Assembly: GCF_900156285.1 (NCBI RefSeq)
Contig: NZ_FTNC01000002.1
Coordinates: forward strand, 1-64,000
Direction of reading: 5' to 3'
From: Halanaerobium kushneri
Lineage (GTDB): Bacteria; Bacillota; Halanaerobiia; Halanaerobiales; Halanaerobiaceae
DNA length: 64,000 nt
Shown here: in pieces, positions 470-6,122 of the stretch
Position numbering within the stretch: the stretch's first letter is position 1
Layout of the letters: the number at the start of each line of letters is the position of its first letter
Translations under genes and position numbers: made by a program
The notes under the pieces: generated by a model
Databases searched by the model: none
What the model saw: the letters and a program-made list of their open reading frames with translations, nothing else
What the model was told of the DNA's origin: nothing

Positions 470-496
470 AAAACCACCCCGGGGAAGGGTGGTTTT
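470..496 (-). terminator. Rho-independent terminator, probably bidirectional
   Basis: AAAACCACCC (470-479) pairs with GGGTGGTTTT (487-496) around a 7-nt loop. Read on the minus strand the stem runs into TTTTTC, so it would end the transcript of the small genes at 608-927. Read on the plus strand it also has a T run. Apart from this hairpin and the weak one at 261-280, I see nothing in the 234-607 stretch. Confidence 0.7.
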
Positions 497-607: not shown

Positions 608-706
608 TTAATAGTTACCTAAGTTTTTAAATGCATTCAGCTTTGCTTGATTCTCATTCGACTCAAGTTGAGCCTCTTTCATAAATTTGAACATGTTATT
701 AAACAT
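608..706 (-). CDS. small protein, 32 aa, member C of a local small-protein family
   Basis: This reading frame runs from an ATG at 706 to a TAA at 608. It encodes 32 residues beginning MFNNMFKFMKEAQ and ending NLGNY. The start sits 9 nt after GAAAGGA, and the leader TATAAGAAAGGATGATT closely resembles the leaders of the two other small genes at 799-927 and 2273-2398. The N-terminus has the same hydrophobic and basic rhythm (M-F/L-x-x-x-F-K/T-F), while the EGRRIE core of the other two is not present. It lies 92 bp downstream of the 799-927 gene on the same strand, before a good terminator at 470-496, so the two probably share a transcript. No known family is recognised. Coding status rests on the leader, the start context and the partial similarity. 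Confidence 0.55.
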   Translation of the reverse strand: MFNNMFKFMKEAQLESNENQAKLNAFKNLGNY

Positions 707-798
707 ATGCAATCATCCTTTCTTATAAAGTTATATTAGTTATAATCTGATTGACTTAACTTTTATTAAAAAAATTATTTGCTATTAATGAAACAATT

Positions 799-927
799 TT
801 AGTACTGATTCAATTGAGCACAAGAATCATGTCTGAGCTGCTTTTCTTTAACTGTGCGAATATTGCTCTCGATTCTTCTACCCTCACTATTACTTGCTTT
901 AATGAATGTGAATAAAGAATTCAACAT
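799..927 (-). CDS. small protein, 42 aa, member A of a local small-protein family
   Basis: An ATG at 927 opens a 42-residue frame ending in TAA at 799. It begins MLNSLFTFIKAS, continues with SEGRRIESNIRTVKEK and ends LNQY. The leader AAGAAAGGGTGATTTGATA is an excellent match to the 16S tail and is nearly the same as that of the gene at 2273-2398. The two proteins share an EGRRIE-[SN]-N-[IL]-R-x-VK core, an amphipathic N-terminus and a C-terminal QY. A strong promoter (1009-1036) and a palindrome (972-988) lie upstream in the same order as for the sister gene. Function is unknown. A basic amphipathic helix could bind membrane, RNA or a protein partner, but nothing here decides that. Confidence 0.65.
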   Translation of the reverse strand: MLNSLFTFIKASNSEGRRIESNIRTVKEKQLRHDSCAQLNQY

Positions 928-971
928 TATCAAATCACCCTTTCTTATAGTCTTATTATTGTAAATTAATT

Positions 972-988
972 ATAAGTGATTTACTTAT
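972..988 (-). promoter_or_regulatory. palindrome at the transcript start of small gene A
   Basis: ATAAGTGATTTACTTAT is an inverted repeat of ATAAGT and ACTTAT with a 5-nt centre. It lies about 20 bp downstream of the -10 box, at or just after the expected transcription start. A close copy occupies the same place before the small gene at 2273-2398 (2433-2450). It may be an operator or a 5' hairpin in the RNA. Confidence 0.5.
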
Positions 989-1008
989 ATATTTTTTATC
1001 TTAATTAC

Positions 1009-1036
1009 ATTATACAACTTTTAAATCTCCTGTCAA
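1009..1036 (-). promoter_or_regulatory. sigma-A type promoter of small genes A and C
   Basis: On the minus strand a perfect TTGACA (1031-1036) and a perfect TATAAT (1009-1014) are separated by 16 bp. The promoter of the sister gene at 2273-2398 has the same two boxes and the same 16-bp spacer. Confidence 0.7.
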
Positions 1037-1077
1037 GTATTTTATCAAAGTCTAAATTTACAGACTTTTTCTCAATC

Positions 1078-2061
1078 TTACCAAAGATGATGTACACTAT
1101 CTCTGATATACTCATCATAAATTTCGTCTACTCTTTCCATTACCTCATCCGAAAGATCTTCAGCTTCAGAGGCAGCAGCATTATCTTGTACCTGCCATGG
1201 TTTTTTTCCACCCGGAATTACACAGCTAACCGCATCGTTCATCAGGATCCACTTAAGAGCAAACTGGGCCATCGTTAGTCCCTCTGGCTTAATTTTTTCT
1301 AACTCTTCTACTGCCTTTAAACCAAGTTCGAAATCCACTCCGGAAAAAGTTTCTCCTTTATCAAAAGCTTCGCCATGACGATTATAGTTGCGGTGATCAT
1401 CTTCAGCAAAAGTTGAGTCTTTGGAAAATTTACCGGTCAGCAGTCCACTCGCCAGTGGAACTCTACAAATAACTCCTACATCTTTTTCTTTAGCTTTATC
1501 CAAAAATTCATCACCCGGCTTATGTCTAAACATATTATAGATGATCTGAACAGTAGCCAGATTTTCATATTCTAAAGCTTTCATTGCTTCTTCTACCTTT
1601 TCAACACTCACACCATAGTTTTTAATTTTACCAGCCGCAACCATTTCTTCTAAAGCCTCAAATACCTCTTCCTGAGAATAAACTTCTGTTGGCGGGCAAT
1701 GGAGCTGCAGCAAATCAATTGTTTCCACATCTAAATTCTTAAGGCTGCGATCCACAAATTTATTTAAATTTTCCTTATTATAGCCCTCAGCAACATGGGG
1801 ATCCAGTCTTCTTCCTGCTTTGGTGGCTATATGTATCTTCTTATCAGTTTCTTTTCTTAATTTAGCCATCAGGCGTTCACTTCGTCCATCTCCATAAACA
1901 TCTGCTGTATCAAAAAAATTGATACCCTGATTTACAGCTTCTCTTAAAGCAGCCATGGACTGTTCGTCTTCTACATCACCCCAGGAACCACCAATTGCCC
2001 AGCCACCAAAAGAAACTTCCGAAACTTCAAAACCTGTTTTGCCTAATTTCCTATATTTCAT
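1078..2061 (-). CDS. aldo/keto reductase
   Basis: The 327-residue protein is a single-domain aldo/keto reductase that would reduce aldehydes or ketones with NAD(P)H in the cytoplasm. The catalytic tetrad is visible: Asp51 and Tyr56 in DTADVYG, Lys81 in ATKAG, and His121 in LQLHCPP. The length is normal for the family. The C-terminal part VIPGGKKPWQVQDN is the usual cofactor-phosphate region of the bacterial subgroup. The start has GGAGG seven bases upstream. A likely promoter lies at 2131-2159, so it is probably transcribed alone. It sits between two loci of the small-protein family. The physiological substrate cannot be told from the sequence. Confidence 0.9.
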   Translation of the reverse strand: MKYRKLGKTGFEVSEVSFGGWAIGGSWGDVEDEQSMAALREAVNQGINFFDTADVYGDGRSERLMAKLRKETDKKIHIATKAGRRLDPHVAEGYNKENLNKFVDRSLKNLDVETIDLLQLHCPPTEVYSQEEVFEALEEMVAAGKIKNYGVSVEKVEEAMKALEYENLATVQIIYNMFRHKPGDEFLDKAKEKDVGVICRVPLASGLLTGKFSKDSTFAEDDHRNYNRHGEAFDKGETFSGVDFELGLKAVEELEKIKPEGLTMAQFALKWILMNDAVSCVIPGGKKPWQVQDNAAASEAEDLSDEVMERVDEIYDEYIRDSVHHLW

Positions 2062-2130
2062 TAATACTACCTCCCTCTTTAAAATAAAAACAAAAAATAA
2101 GTTTTTTTAAGTTTTAAATTATCTAAATTT

Positions 2131-2159
2131 ATTATAGCATTTATCTTAATATATTTAAA
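2131..2159 (-). promoter_or_regulatory. candidate promoter of the aldo/keto reductase
   Basis: On the minus strand TTTAAA (2154-2159) and a perfect TATAAT (2131-2136) are 17 bp apart, about 70 bp before the start codon. The -35 box is weak. Confidence 0.45.
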
Positions 2160-2175
2160 GATGAAAATATACTAA

Positions 2176-2218
2176 ATAAAAAAAGAACACTCCCTTTATA
2201 AAAAAGAAAGTGTCCTTT
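2176..2218 (-). terminator. terminator of small gene B
   Basis: On the minus strand AAAGGACACTTTC pairs imperfectly with GGGAGTGTTCTTT and runs into a T-rich tract. It lies about 55 bp after the stop of the small gene at 2273-2398 and before the promoter of the aldo/keto reductase. Confidence 0.6.
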
Positions 2219-2272
2219 AAGTCTGATAATAATTATTATATTTAACTTCTATTTTCATTATAATCTTATAAA

Positions 2273-2398
2273 CTAATACTGCATAAAAGTACTGGTGTCC
2301 TGATTGTCATACTGATTCTTTACTTGCCTGAGGTTATTTTCAATCCTTCTCCCCTCAGTACTGACTTCATTAAAAAATTTAATTACTCTTTTTAGCAT
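2273..2398 (-). CDS. small protein, 41 aa, member B of a local small-protein family
   Basis: The frame starts with an ATG at 2398 and ends with TAG at 2273. The 41-residue product begins MLKRVIKFFNEVS, continues TEGRRIENNLRQVKNQ and ends FMQY. The leader GACTATAAGAAAGGGTGATTAATA matches that of the gene at 799-927 nearly base for base. The gene has its own strong promoter (2465-2492), a palindrome at the transcript start (2433-2450) and a terminator (2176-2218), so it is a free-standing transcription unit. Protein similarity to member A is clear in the EGRRIE core while the surrounding residues differ, which suggests selection on a protein. No known family is recognised. Confidence 0.65.
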   Translation of the reverse strand: MLKRVIKFFNEVSTEGRRIENNLRQVKNQYDNQDTSTFMQY

Positions 2399-2464: not shown

Positions 2465-2492
2465 ATTATACATCAATAATACTCACTGTCAA
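2465..2492 (-). promoter_or_regulatory. sigma-A type promoter of small gene B
   Basis: TTGACA (2487-2492) and TATAAT (2465-2470) on the minus strand are separated by 16 bp. Both boxes are perfect consensus. Confidence 0.7.
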
Positions 2493-2585: not shown

Positions 2586-4364
2586 TTATATCACTCTATT
2601 ATACTGAGCCATATAAAGATCATGATAATGGCCCTGTCTGGCCATTAATTCTTCGTGACTGCCGGTTTCGATTATTTCCCCAGCTTCTAAAACCATAATC
2701 CGATCAGCATTACGAATAGTCGACAAACGGTGGGCAATTACAAAAGAAGTTCTTCCTTTTAATACTGCCTGGGTTGCTTTTTGAATTAATATCTCAGTCT
2801 GTGTATCAATACTTGAGGTTGCCTCGTCTAAAATCAGTATCTTTGGATCTGACAAAATTGTTCGAGCAAATGATATTAACTGCCGCTGGCCAACTGATAA
2901 TCGGGAACCACGCTCATTGACTTCAGTATCATAGCCATTTTCCATTTCTCGAATAAAAGAATCTGCATAAACCATTTTTGCAGCTTCTTCTATATCTTCT
3001 CTGGTTGCCTCGAGATTTCCATAGCGAATATTATCTGCTATTGAGCCTGAGAAAATAAAAGTATCCTGCATCATAACTCCAATCTGTTTTCTTAAAGAAG
3101 CAATTTTAACACCCTGAATATCAATATCATCAATTAAAATATCCCCCTTATCAATATCATAAAAACGGGTCATTAAATTAATTATTGTGCTTTTCCCGGC
3201 ACCGGTGGCGCCAACAAAGGCAATAGTTTCTCCAGGCTGAACCTCAAAATTCATGTCTTTTAAAATAATCTCTCCATCTTCTTCATAACTAAAACTAACA
3301 TTTTTAAATTCAACTTTACCATCAATTTCAGGCATTACTTTAGCTTCTGGAAGATCAACAATATCAGGGTCTGTATCCAGCACATCAAAAATTCTTTCCG
3401 CAGCTGAGTTAGCAACCAGAACCTGATTATAAAAGTTACTAATATTAATAATTGGCTGCCATAAACGCCAGATATACTGAAGTAATGCTACTAAAGTACC
3501 AATGGTAACCAGACCGGCATTTAAATCTCTGATTCCAACTAAATACATTATAATAACACTGGCAGTATTAATCAAAAGTACTATTGGAAAAATACCGTGT
3601 GACATCATAACTGTCTTCATCCAGTTACTTACGTAGTCATTCTGTAGGTCTTTAAAAATATTGCTGTTTTTTTCTTCCCGGACAAAGGCTTGAGTAATCT
3701 TCATTCCAGTTAAACTCTCATGTATATAGGCATTCATATTTGATCGCTTTTTTTGTACACGACGCCAACCAATCCGAATTTTTTTCTTCAGCAGAAAAAT
3801 AAGGAAAATAAGAATTGGCATTACTGTTATTGAAATTAGAGTTAGCCGCAGGTTAAGATTTAGCATGATTAGCAAGATTGCTAGAAAACGAAATGTGTCT
3901 GTAATAATATTAATCAGACCATTTTCTAAAAGATTCTGGAGTGAATTAACATTATTCATTACCCTTACAATAATTTTTCCAGCGGGAATAGAATCAAAAT
4001 AACTAAAGGACAGATTCTGGATATGTTGAAAAAGATCCTGCCTAATATTCCTAACTACCTGATGTCCTACCTTACTCATAATTAAAACTCTAAAGCGAAC
4101 AGCAAAACCATTAACTGCAAGTAAGCCCATAAAAATCAAACTGATAATTGTTAGTCCTCTATAATCACCTGCTAAAATATAATTATCAATTGCAATCTTG
4201 GTTAAATAAGGACCTAAAAGATCAGCAAAGGCAGCCATGGCCATTAAAAATAGTGATAGAGCAACTCGATACTTATATGGTTTTAAATAAGCAAGAACTC
4301 TTTTTATATTATTAGGATCAAGATTTTCCATCTTTTCATCTTCAAAATACCTGTTATAGGCCAT
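2586..4364 (-). CDS. heterodimeric ABC exporter subunit, consensus ATPase half
   Basis: The 592-residue half-transporter has a membrane domain (about residues 25-330, six helices) followed by an ATPase domain. Walker A is GATGAGKST (385-393), Walker B with the catalytic Glu is DE at 513-514, and the switch His is 545. The signature is LSVGQ (489-493) instead of LSGGQ. In heterodimeric exporters of the BmrCD or TM287/288 kind, one subunit carries the altered signature and the other the altered Walker B, which is exactly what this gene and the one before it show. The start codon follows the stop of the upstream gene without a gap. It is probably a multidrug or lipid-type exporter; the substrate is unknown. 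Confidence 0.9.
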   Translation of the reverse strand: MAYNRYFEDEKMENLDPNNIKRVLAYLKPYKYRVALSLFLMAMAAFADLLGPYLTKIAIDNYILAGDYRGLTIISLIFMGLLAVNGFAVRFRVLIMSKVGHQVVRNIRQDLFQHIQNLSFSYFDSIPAGKIIVRVMNNVNSLQNLLENGLINIITDTFRFLAILLIMLNLNLRLTLISITVMPILIFLIFLLKKKIRIGWRRVQKKRSNMNAYIHESLTGMKITQAFVREEKNSNIFKDLQNDYVSNWMKTVMMSHGIFPIVLLINTASVIIMYLVGIRDLNAGLVTIGTLVALLQYIWRLWQPIINISNFYNQVLVANSAAERIFDVLDTDPDIVDLPEAKVMPEIDGKVEFKNVSFSYEEDGEIILKDMNFEVQPGETIAFVGATGAGKSTIINLMTRFYDIDKGDILIDDIDIQGVKIASLRKQIGVMMQDTFIFSGSIADNIRYGNLEATREDIEEAAKMVYADSFIREMENGYDTEVNERGSRLSVGQRQLISFARTILSDPKILILDEATSSIDTQTEILIQKATQAVLKGRTSFVIAHRLSTIRNADRIMVLEAGEIIETGSHEELMARQGHYHDLYMAQYNRVI

Positions 4365-6122
4365 TTACTTTACCCACCTCTCTTCAATCTCTTTTTCGTC
4401 AATAACCTCTTTATACTGCTCCTTAAACATTGTATAATATTGTCCTTTGTTTTTTATTAATTCCTCATGAGTTCCTCTTTCAATAATTTCTCCATGATCC
4501 AGAATCAATATTTGATCTGCATTGCGAACTGAAGAAATTCGGTGAGCTATTAAAAAAAGAGTACTGCGCTGATCCATAGCCTCCAGAGCCTGCTGAATCT
4601 GATGTTCGGTTTCCATATCAACAGCAGAAGTTGCATCATCTAAAATTAAAATTGGACTTTCTTCTACTATTGCTCTGGCAATTGAAACTCTCTGTTTTTG
4701 ACCGCCAGAAAGTCCCATACCTCTTTCCCCAATGACCTCCTCAAAACCAGATTCCATTTCTTCAATAAAATTACGGGCACTGCTGATATCTGCTGCTCTT
4801 TTTATTTTCTCTAAATCAAGCCCTGGCTGACCATAAGCAATATTACTGGCGATTGTTTCAGAAAAAAGAAAAACATCTTGCATAACAATGCTAACCTGTG
4901 ATCTTAAATCCCGCAGATCATAATCCCTGTTATCTATGCCGTCAATTAGAACCTGACCATCTGTAGGTTCATAATAGCGGGGGATTAAATTTATTAAAGA
5001 AGATTTACCACTACCGGTTGCACCCATAACCGCAATAGTTTCTCCTGGTTCAGCATGAAAGGATACATTTTTTAAAATGTCCTCATCTCCATAACTTAAA
5101 GAAACATTTTTAAACTCTATCTCTCCTTTAACTCTATCAATATGGACTGCTTTTTTCTTGTTTTTAATTTCTGGCTCTGTCTCTAAAATATTAAATATTC
5201 TCTCGGCAGAAGCACTGGTCCGGGAAAACATATTTACAATATGACCTATCATCCGCATCGGCATAATTAACATCCAGAGATAAGAATTAAACTGCATCCA
5301 AATTCCAAGTGTAATCTCACCTTCGATTACTAAACGTCCGCCATAAAACAGGAGCAAAACTGTACTCATTCCACCTAAAAACTCCATAATCGGAAAATAT
5401 TTTGACCATATTTTAGCTGCATTATAATTTTTAGTAAAATAATTGTTATTTTCTTCATCAAATTTTTCCATCTCATAACACTGCTGATGAAATGCTTTTA
5501 CAATTCTTATCCCTGAAATATTCTCCTGAACTGTAGAGTTAAGATCAGAATACTGACGTCTTACCTGCCTGAAAATTGGTTTGATTCGTACCCCCAGTCT
5601 GTAAGCGAAAAAACCGATTAGCGGACTTAAAGCAAGTGAAACCAGAGAAAGCTTTAAACTTTCTGGAATTAAAACTGCCATTACAAAAACTATATAAAAT
5701 ATAGCTCTAGTAAACTGAATCATCCCATCAGCAAAAAGCATTCTTACCGCTTCCATATCTCCTGTCATTCGAGACATCAATTCTCCTGTACGGTTATTAT
5801 TGAAAAAATTAAAAGAAAGTCTCTGTAAATGATCATAAAGATCCTGTTTCAAGTCCCGCAGTAAATTTTGGGATAGACTCTCTGTAAAAAATCTCTGGAT
5901 CATAATTGCGGCTGCTCTTAAAAAATTCGCAGCTATATAAGTCACCAGAAAAGTAAATAAAAGTTCCATCTGCTGACCATTAATTACATCATCAATTATT
6001 CTTCTATTTAAGTAACCAGGAATCATCGAAAAAATTACATTTAATATAATAAAAAATAATCCCCCAAAAAAGAATAATTTATATTTTTTAACATAGATCC
6101 ATAATTTCTTTAATTCTCTCAT
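4365..6122 (-). CDS. heterodimeric ABC exporter subunit, degenerate ATPase half
   Basis: This 585-residue half-transporter has six predicted membrane helices (about 15-310) and an ATPase domain with Walker A GATGSGKSS (367-375) and signature LSGGQ (471-475). The residue after the Walker B aspartate is Asp496 (ILILDDATSA) where the catalytic Glu is expected. This is the mark of the subunit that forms the non-hydrolysing site in heterodimeric exporters. Its partner is the adjacent gene at 2586-4364. An AGGAGA ribosome site precedes the ATG at 6122. The gap to the esterase at 6163-7122 is only 40 bp, so the three genes are probably one operon. Confidence 0.9.
   Translation of the reverse strand: MRELKKLWIYVKKYKLFFFGGLFFIILNVIFSMIPGYLNRRIIDDVINGQQMELLFTFLVTYIAANFLRAAAIMIQRFFTESLSQNLLRDLKQDLYDHLQRLSFNFFNNNRTGELMSRMTGDMEAVRMLFADGMIQFTRAIFYIVFVMAVLIPESLKLSLVSLALSPLIGFFAYRLGVRIKPIFRQVRRQYSDLNSTVQENISGIRIVKAFHQQCYEMEKFDEENNNYFTKNYNAAKIWSKYFPIMEFLGGMSTVLLLFYGGRLVIEGEITLGIWMQFNSYLWMLIMPMRMIGHIVNMFSRTSASAERIFNILETEPEIKNKKKAVHIDRVKGEIEFKNVSLSYGDEDILKNVSFHAEPGETIAVMGATGSGKSSLINLIPRYYEPTDGQVLIDGIDNRDYDLRDLRSQVSIVMQDVFLFSETIASNIAYGQPGLDLEKIKRAADISSARNFIEEMESGFEEVIGERGMGLSGGQKQRVSIARAIVEESPILILDDATSAVDMETEHQIQQALEAMDQRSTLFLIAHRISSVRNADQILILDHGEIIERGTHEELIKNKGQYYTMFKEQYKEVIDEKEIEERWVK

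Follow-up and report, generated by a model that had tools for sequence, protein, structure and literature searches.

Three very small genes lie on the minus strand near the start of the 64 kb window, by which we mean the whole stretch of Halanaerobium kushneri DNA that was analysed. Gene A (608-706) encodes 32 amino acids (MFNNMFKFMKEAQLESNENQAKLNAFKNLGNY), gene B (799-927) 42 amino acids (MLNSLFTFIKASNSEGRRIESNIRTVKEKQLRHDSCAQLNQY) and gene C (2273-2398) 41 amino acids (MLKRVIKFFNEVSTEGRRIENNLRQVKNQYDNQDTSTFMQY). All three are ATG frames with the lengths and positions given in an earlier sequence-only reading of this DNA, which had assigned them to three gene-poor gaps; the gaps are two rather than three, since A and B occupy the same one (1-1077) and C another. 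An aldo/keto reductase gene (1078-2061, minus strand) lies between C and B, and two half-size ABC exporter genes, encoding 592 and 585 amino acids (2586-6122, minus strand), are found directly upstream of C. The motif EGRRIE and a final QY are common to B and C, as had been pointed out, and the conserved charged second half of both proteins reads EGxRIExN(L/I)RxVK. The shorter A ends in NLGNY, and its C-terminal AFKNLGNY is nearly invariant across the genus Halanaerobium. All three are genuine genes and belong to a single small-protein family of the class Halanaerobiia, divided into one subfamily with B and C and a more conserved one with A; a chance origin of the frames is excluded by their conservation in other genomes.

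Promoters, terminators and gene order

Perfect TTGACA-N16-TATAAT promoters occur at only two sites in the window, where 0.02 would be expected by chance, and both are located 66-81 nt upstream of one of these genes, C (2465-2492, minus strand) or B (1009-1036, minus strand). The near-identical consensus promoters that the earlier reading had placed before two of the frames are in fact both perfect. The promoter matches 12 of 12 consensus positions before every B, all five Halanaerobium copies of C and every A that stands without B, as against only 9-10 of 12 for the A promoter in genomes with B. In the window A lacks a near-consensus promoter, and the best reading is that it follows B in a B-A transcript, to which the promoter before B would then belong. 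The simplest reading of this arrangement is that a tandem duplication placed B between A and the promoter of A. An imperfect palindrome, GTCTGTAAATTTAGAC (1050-1065, minus strand), is positioned upstream of the -35 box of B and kept in most relatives, has no second copy in the window, and is also found before A in two genomes without B (G011 and G012); it is a possible operator or UP-like element.

Downstream of A, a stem-loop flanked by an A-tract and a T-tract (470-496, minus strand; listed on the plus strand by the scan) was taken as a terminator, and the same hairpin follows A in relatives. The scan also gave an intrinsic terminator after C (2182-2218, minus strand). The arrangement seen in the best-preserved genomes runs ABC exporter 1, ABC exporter 2, C, aldo/keto reductase, B, A and deoD, and the neighbours of A are metA, the aldo/keto reductase gene and deoD. 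The purine-nucleoside-phosphorylase gene deoD comes after A in all eight genomes whose contig extends past A, with a terminator between the two in each of the three inspected and a near-consensus promoter of its own. The position of A before deoD provides the family with a fixed chromosomal home. In the window itself a transposase-like frame with a weak DDE_Tnp_1 match stands at the contig start, and a deoD-like promoter (450-422, minus strand), also within the first 450 nt, has no deoD behind it, so an insertion sequence has probably come between deoD and its promoter.

Relatives and selection

The sequence-only reading depended on the existence of protein-level homologues in other genomes, and these were found. 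Searches were made with one profile of the three proteins and then with separate profiles of A, B and C, which revealed orthologues of A in 11 of the 12 Halanaerobium genomes (E 1e-17 to 1e-20), of B in seven and of C in five, the genomes with family members including H. saccharolyticum, H. congolense, H. salsuginis and H. polyolivorans. C-type relatives extend beyond the genus to two genomes from a different family of the class (G058 and G052, E about 1e-8), where they read MLETMVKLFRKVNDEGMRIEDNLRKAKESYDRENRIFFN and MLNRLFNFLDNVVKEGSRIDSNVKEAKESYEEKNHMFFGN and are each preceded by the same leader. All orthologues keep the ATG start and the reading frame. The comparison of synonymous with non-synonymous change that had been proposed alongside showed mostly synonymous change: variable columns are mostly third codon positions (13/13/27 in A, 16/8/28 in B and 27/18/38 in C), and the pooled pN/pS ratios of 0.28 for A, 0.26 for B and 0.41 for C are approximate, the wider comparisons being close to saturation at synonymous sites. 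Judged from these codon patterns, purifying selection acts on the proteins.

Outside the class nothing convincing was found in 299 sampled genomes of the phylum; partial matches inside long frames were the only candidates for distant relatives there and were taken as chance. A, B and C had no match in Pfam or NCBIfam, nor the relatives in G052 and G058 in Pfam. PHROGs gave no significant match for the family (best E 0.039) and the PDB no sequence relative (best E 0.14, to short coiled-coil peptides). A phage, plasmid or viral origin was rejected, as no match was present in the collections searched. The titles and abstracts of the open-licence papers searched describe no such family, cassette or leader, and the sequences may already be present, unnamed, in small-protein catalogues such as GMSC. 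With conserved proteins and strong promoters and ribosome sites, the small-protein family that had been suggested is borne out; it is previously unnamed and otherwise of a known kind, and it adds a selection-maintained family of proteins below 45 residues in a little-studied halophilic class.

A leader shared with unrelated small proteins

The three genes had been said to share a near-identical leader and a strong ribosome site, and this was borne out: TATAAGAAAGG[AG]TGATT without mismatch has three sites in the 3.2 Mb genome, precisely those before A, B and C. The leader of A with its ribosome site lies at 711-734 (ATAACTTTATAAGAAAGGATGATT), while those of B (933-956, ATAAGACTATAAGAAAGGGTGATT) and C (2403-2426, ACAAGACTATAAGAAAGGGTGATT) combine an ATAAGA array with the ribosome site, all on the minus strand. 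The general design is an ATAAG array with a period of about 8 nt followed by a strong extended ribosome site, which is complementary to the tail of the 16S rRNA. Extended ribosome sites can drive initiation and also protect short mRNAs.

A class-wide search for the leader also gave other very small frames, most of them with strong promoters and terminators. They encode a 30-residue hydrophobic peptide, a zinc-ribbon protein of 50-57 aa and, in G005, G051 and G058, individual amphipathic peptides. In the reverse test, profiles built from the 30-mer and zinc-ribbon proteins picked up further members on protein sequence alone. Among 26 such non-seed members, 17 had at least two ATAAG within 85 nt upstream, as compared with 4 of 147 ordinary genes, many of the members being orthologues and their counts therefore not independent. 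A strict ATAAG array precedes 17 of 25 copies of A, B and C and none of the 147 control genes; the genome-wide frequency of the leader was estimated from the pattern search and these controls. The element is absent from the small-protein members of G026, G028 and family f7. It is not confined to tiny genes either, since the gene for a HAD-like phosphatase of ordinary length (272 aa; L168, G000:C45:82419) also has an ATAAG-array leader.

The hydrophobic peptides of 30 amino acids, for example MKNVMKKSAGAGAAVGAISAYGAFLVQMWT, are spread over seven Halanaerobium genomes (L181, L182, L183, L185, L191, L162, L196 and L198) and are likewise preceded by a leader of this type; the single member tested had no Pfam match. 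The zinc-ribbon protein, of about 37-57 amino acids with the pattern CxxC...NWS...YCxKCSG, is present in 26 of the 59 genomes of the class (L179, L180, L188, L171, L173, L189 and L205-L229), including that of the window (G000:C25:22708-22815). Many of its genes stand behind an ATAAG-array leader, and one member matched DUF7577. A further ATAAG-array leader, in G016:C10 (L184, 610 onward), precedes a 28-residue putative transmembrane peptide, MRDFLISAVMVGIVIIPQLAELYFSKNN.

Pairing of the ribosome site exceeded that of shuffled leaders in B (0.72 vs 0.59) and slightly in C, and was not clearly above it in the cassettes of A, the hydrophobic peptide and the zinc ribbon; a hairpin masking the ribosome site was accordingly set aside as a general mechanism. 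A riboswitch or other known RNA was rejected in the absence of an Rfam match. It is possible, if rather doubtful, that the ATAAG array and extended ribosome site together constitute a class-wide mark of very small, unrelated proteins, serving as the site of an RNA-binding protein or as a ribosome standby or mRNA-stabilising site and defining one post-transcriptional regulon. The leader offers a sequence handle for small-protein genes that length filters miss and raises the question of why one 5' element should stand before unrelated tiny proteins. It is the part of the finding that could prove to be more than a new small-protein family.

Gene C and the ABC exporter

The exporter half encoded just upstream of C was searched for in the 59 genomes of the class, and matches of at least 66% identity were found in exactly the same seven genomes as C-type genes, five of these seven belonging to one genus, Halanaerobium, and two to family f11 (G058 and G052). 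G058 has both the exporter and a C-type gene, and its congeners G056 and G057 have neither. C is located directly behind the exporter in the five Halanaerobium copies and in G058, and in G052 the C-type gene lies about 42 kb from the nearest exporter gene. Exporter homologues of 58-60% identity are found in G002-G004, G006 and G009, with no detectable C in these genomes, in four of which the DNA downstream of the exporter was read; C as part of a universal exporter operon is thereby ruled out. In three of them, of another genus (G004, G003 and G002; L144, L145 and L146), a different aldo/keto reductase gene comes straight after the related ABC pair, which gives the impression of a long-standing association of exporter and reductase. 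Neither A nor B tracks the exporter: A, or A and B, persist without it in G010, G011, G012, G014 and G020, and G014 for one has both A and B and no such exporter.

The exporter has ABC_membrane and ABC_tran domains, with no peptidase domain (C39) seen, and falls below the NCBIfam cut-offs among the models listed. Its neighbours include genes for the degradation of sugar polymers, one for an acetyl xylan esterase in the window and, in G058, one for an arabinofuranosidase, for which reason its substrate may be unrelated to the peptide.

Discussion

The earlier claim of an amphipathic N-terminus holds strongly for C and moderately for B, and poorly for A. In each of the six C-type proteins tested, the helical hydrophobic moment of residues 1-28 surpassed 99.7% or more of the shuffles, and B also differed from shuffles (p 0.002-0.016), while residues 1-18 of A were mostly unremarkable (p 0.03-0.56). 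AlphaFold2 with small family alignments predicted a single helix in both C (residues 2-38; residues 1-30 have a pLDDT of about 90) and A (residues 2-30, mean pLDDT 75), single-helix predictions that come easily for peptides of 32-41 residues and say little. The proteins have a net charge near zero, a strongly charged second half and no long hydrophobic stretch, and C has no transmembrane stretch.

The explanation we favour, tentatively and with confidence somewhat short of even, is that these are abundant single-helix peripheral membrane proteins and that C serves the exporter. Each gene would be part of a high-output cassette of consensus promoter, ATAAG-array leader with extended ribosome site, a frame of 32-42 codons and terminator, and to judge by these signals the short mRNA would be efficiently translated. 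A single alpha helix is predicted for every one of the proteins. Its amphipathic N-terminal third would rest against the cytoplasmic membrane from the inside, as predicted for B and C in particular, and its charged second half (AFKNLGNY for A, EGxRIExN(L/I)RxVK for B and C) would bind a membrane-protein partner, which for C would be the neighbouring ABC exporter; for this gene, then, there is a clear partner hypothesis. A, with one fixed location in almost every Halanaerobium genome, would represent the ancestral, housekeeping form, and B and C duplicates with a specialised partner. Membrane location, partner and abundance are here inferred, and the membrane claim is weak for A, the most conserved member, as A is only weakly amphipathic.

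That weak amphipathicity, together with the near-zero net charge and charged second half, would suit cytosolic helical adaptors of a soluble enzyme or regulator, in which the hydrophobic N-terminal face binds protein and not membrane. Sda and MciZ are small regulators that act in this manner, and the differing C-terminal halves of A and of B and C are as expected for different partners. We nevertheless regard such adaptors as somewhat unlikely, given that C and B show the pattern of a membrane-surface helix and that C tracks a membrane transporter. The same transporter could be taken to indicate secreted peptides, be it a leaderless bacteriocin or a surfactant or signal resembling phenol-soluble modulins, with C exported by the adjacent ABC pair; the amphipathic start, several paralogues and strong promoters are all in keeping with this. 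Such a role is improbable, since A occupies a fixed site in nearly the whole genus and is subject to purifying selection, unlike most strain-specific bacteriocins, since A or A and B persist in five genomes without the exporter, and since nothing resembling an immunity gene was recognised next to A. Nor was a C39 peptidase domain seen in the transporter, which has sugar-polymer-degrading genes among its neighbours.

Two further readings are far less probable. The conserved leader and terminator, the position of A before deoD wherever the contig reaches and the capacity of the B leader to pair with its own ribosome site could suggest a regulatory leader or small RNA, the frames being short leader peptides that control the next gene. 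This is very improbable in view of the terminators that split A and C from the following genes, the near-consensus promoter that deoD has for itself, the conserved amino acids, ribosome-site pairing not clearly above shuffled in the A, hydrophobic and zinc-ribbon cassettes, and the lack of an Rfam match. Small size, tandem paralogues and strong promoters are also features of type I toxins or other selfish peptides, which we consider least probable of all: the proteins have no long hydrophobic stretch, the scan gave no near-consensus antisense promoter opposite the A, B and C frames, the family is absent from the phage, plasmid and viral collections searched, and its chromosomal site is fixed.

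Among known systems, phenol-soluble modulins and leaderless bacteriocins are short amphipathic peptides without signal sequence, often occurring as paralogues and exported by ABC transporters. The present family resembles them in its short, amphipathic, signal-less peptides, its several paralogues and the ABC exporter beside C, and differs from them in the housekeeping-like distribution of A, its mixed charge and the lack of a dedicated exporter for A and B. In the case of AcrZ, a transmembrane helix on the RND pump AcrB, a very small protein likewise accompanies a specific exporter; C differs in that it lacks a transmembrane stretch and is tied to the ABC pair only by genomic evidence. SpoVM and others are small membrane-surface proteins of Firmicutes, each a short single amphipathic helix with a lipid-facing side and no signal peptide. 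No Pfam or NCBIfam relation ties the family to them, no sporulation gene was recognised beside A, B or C, and A is weakly amphipathic, whereas C and B, as predicted, share with SpoVM the short single amphipathic helix that carries no signal peptide.
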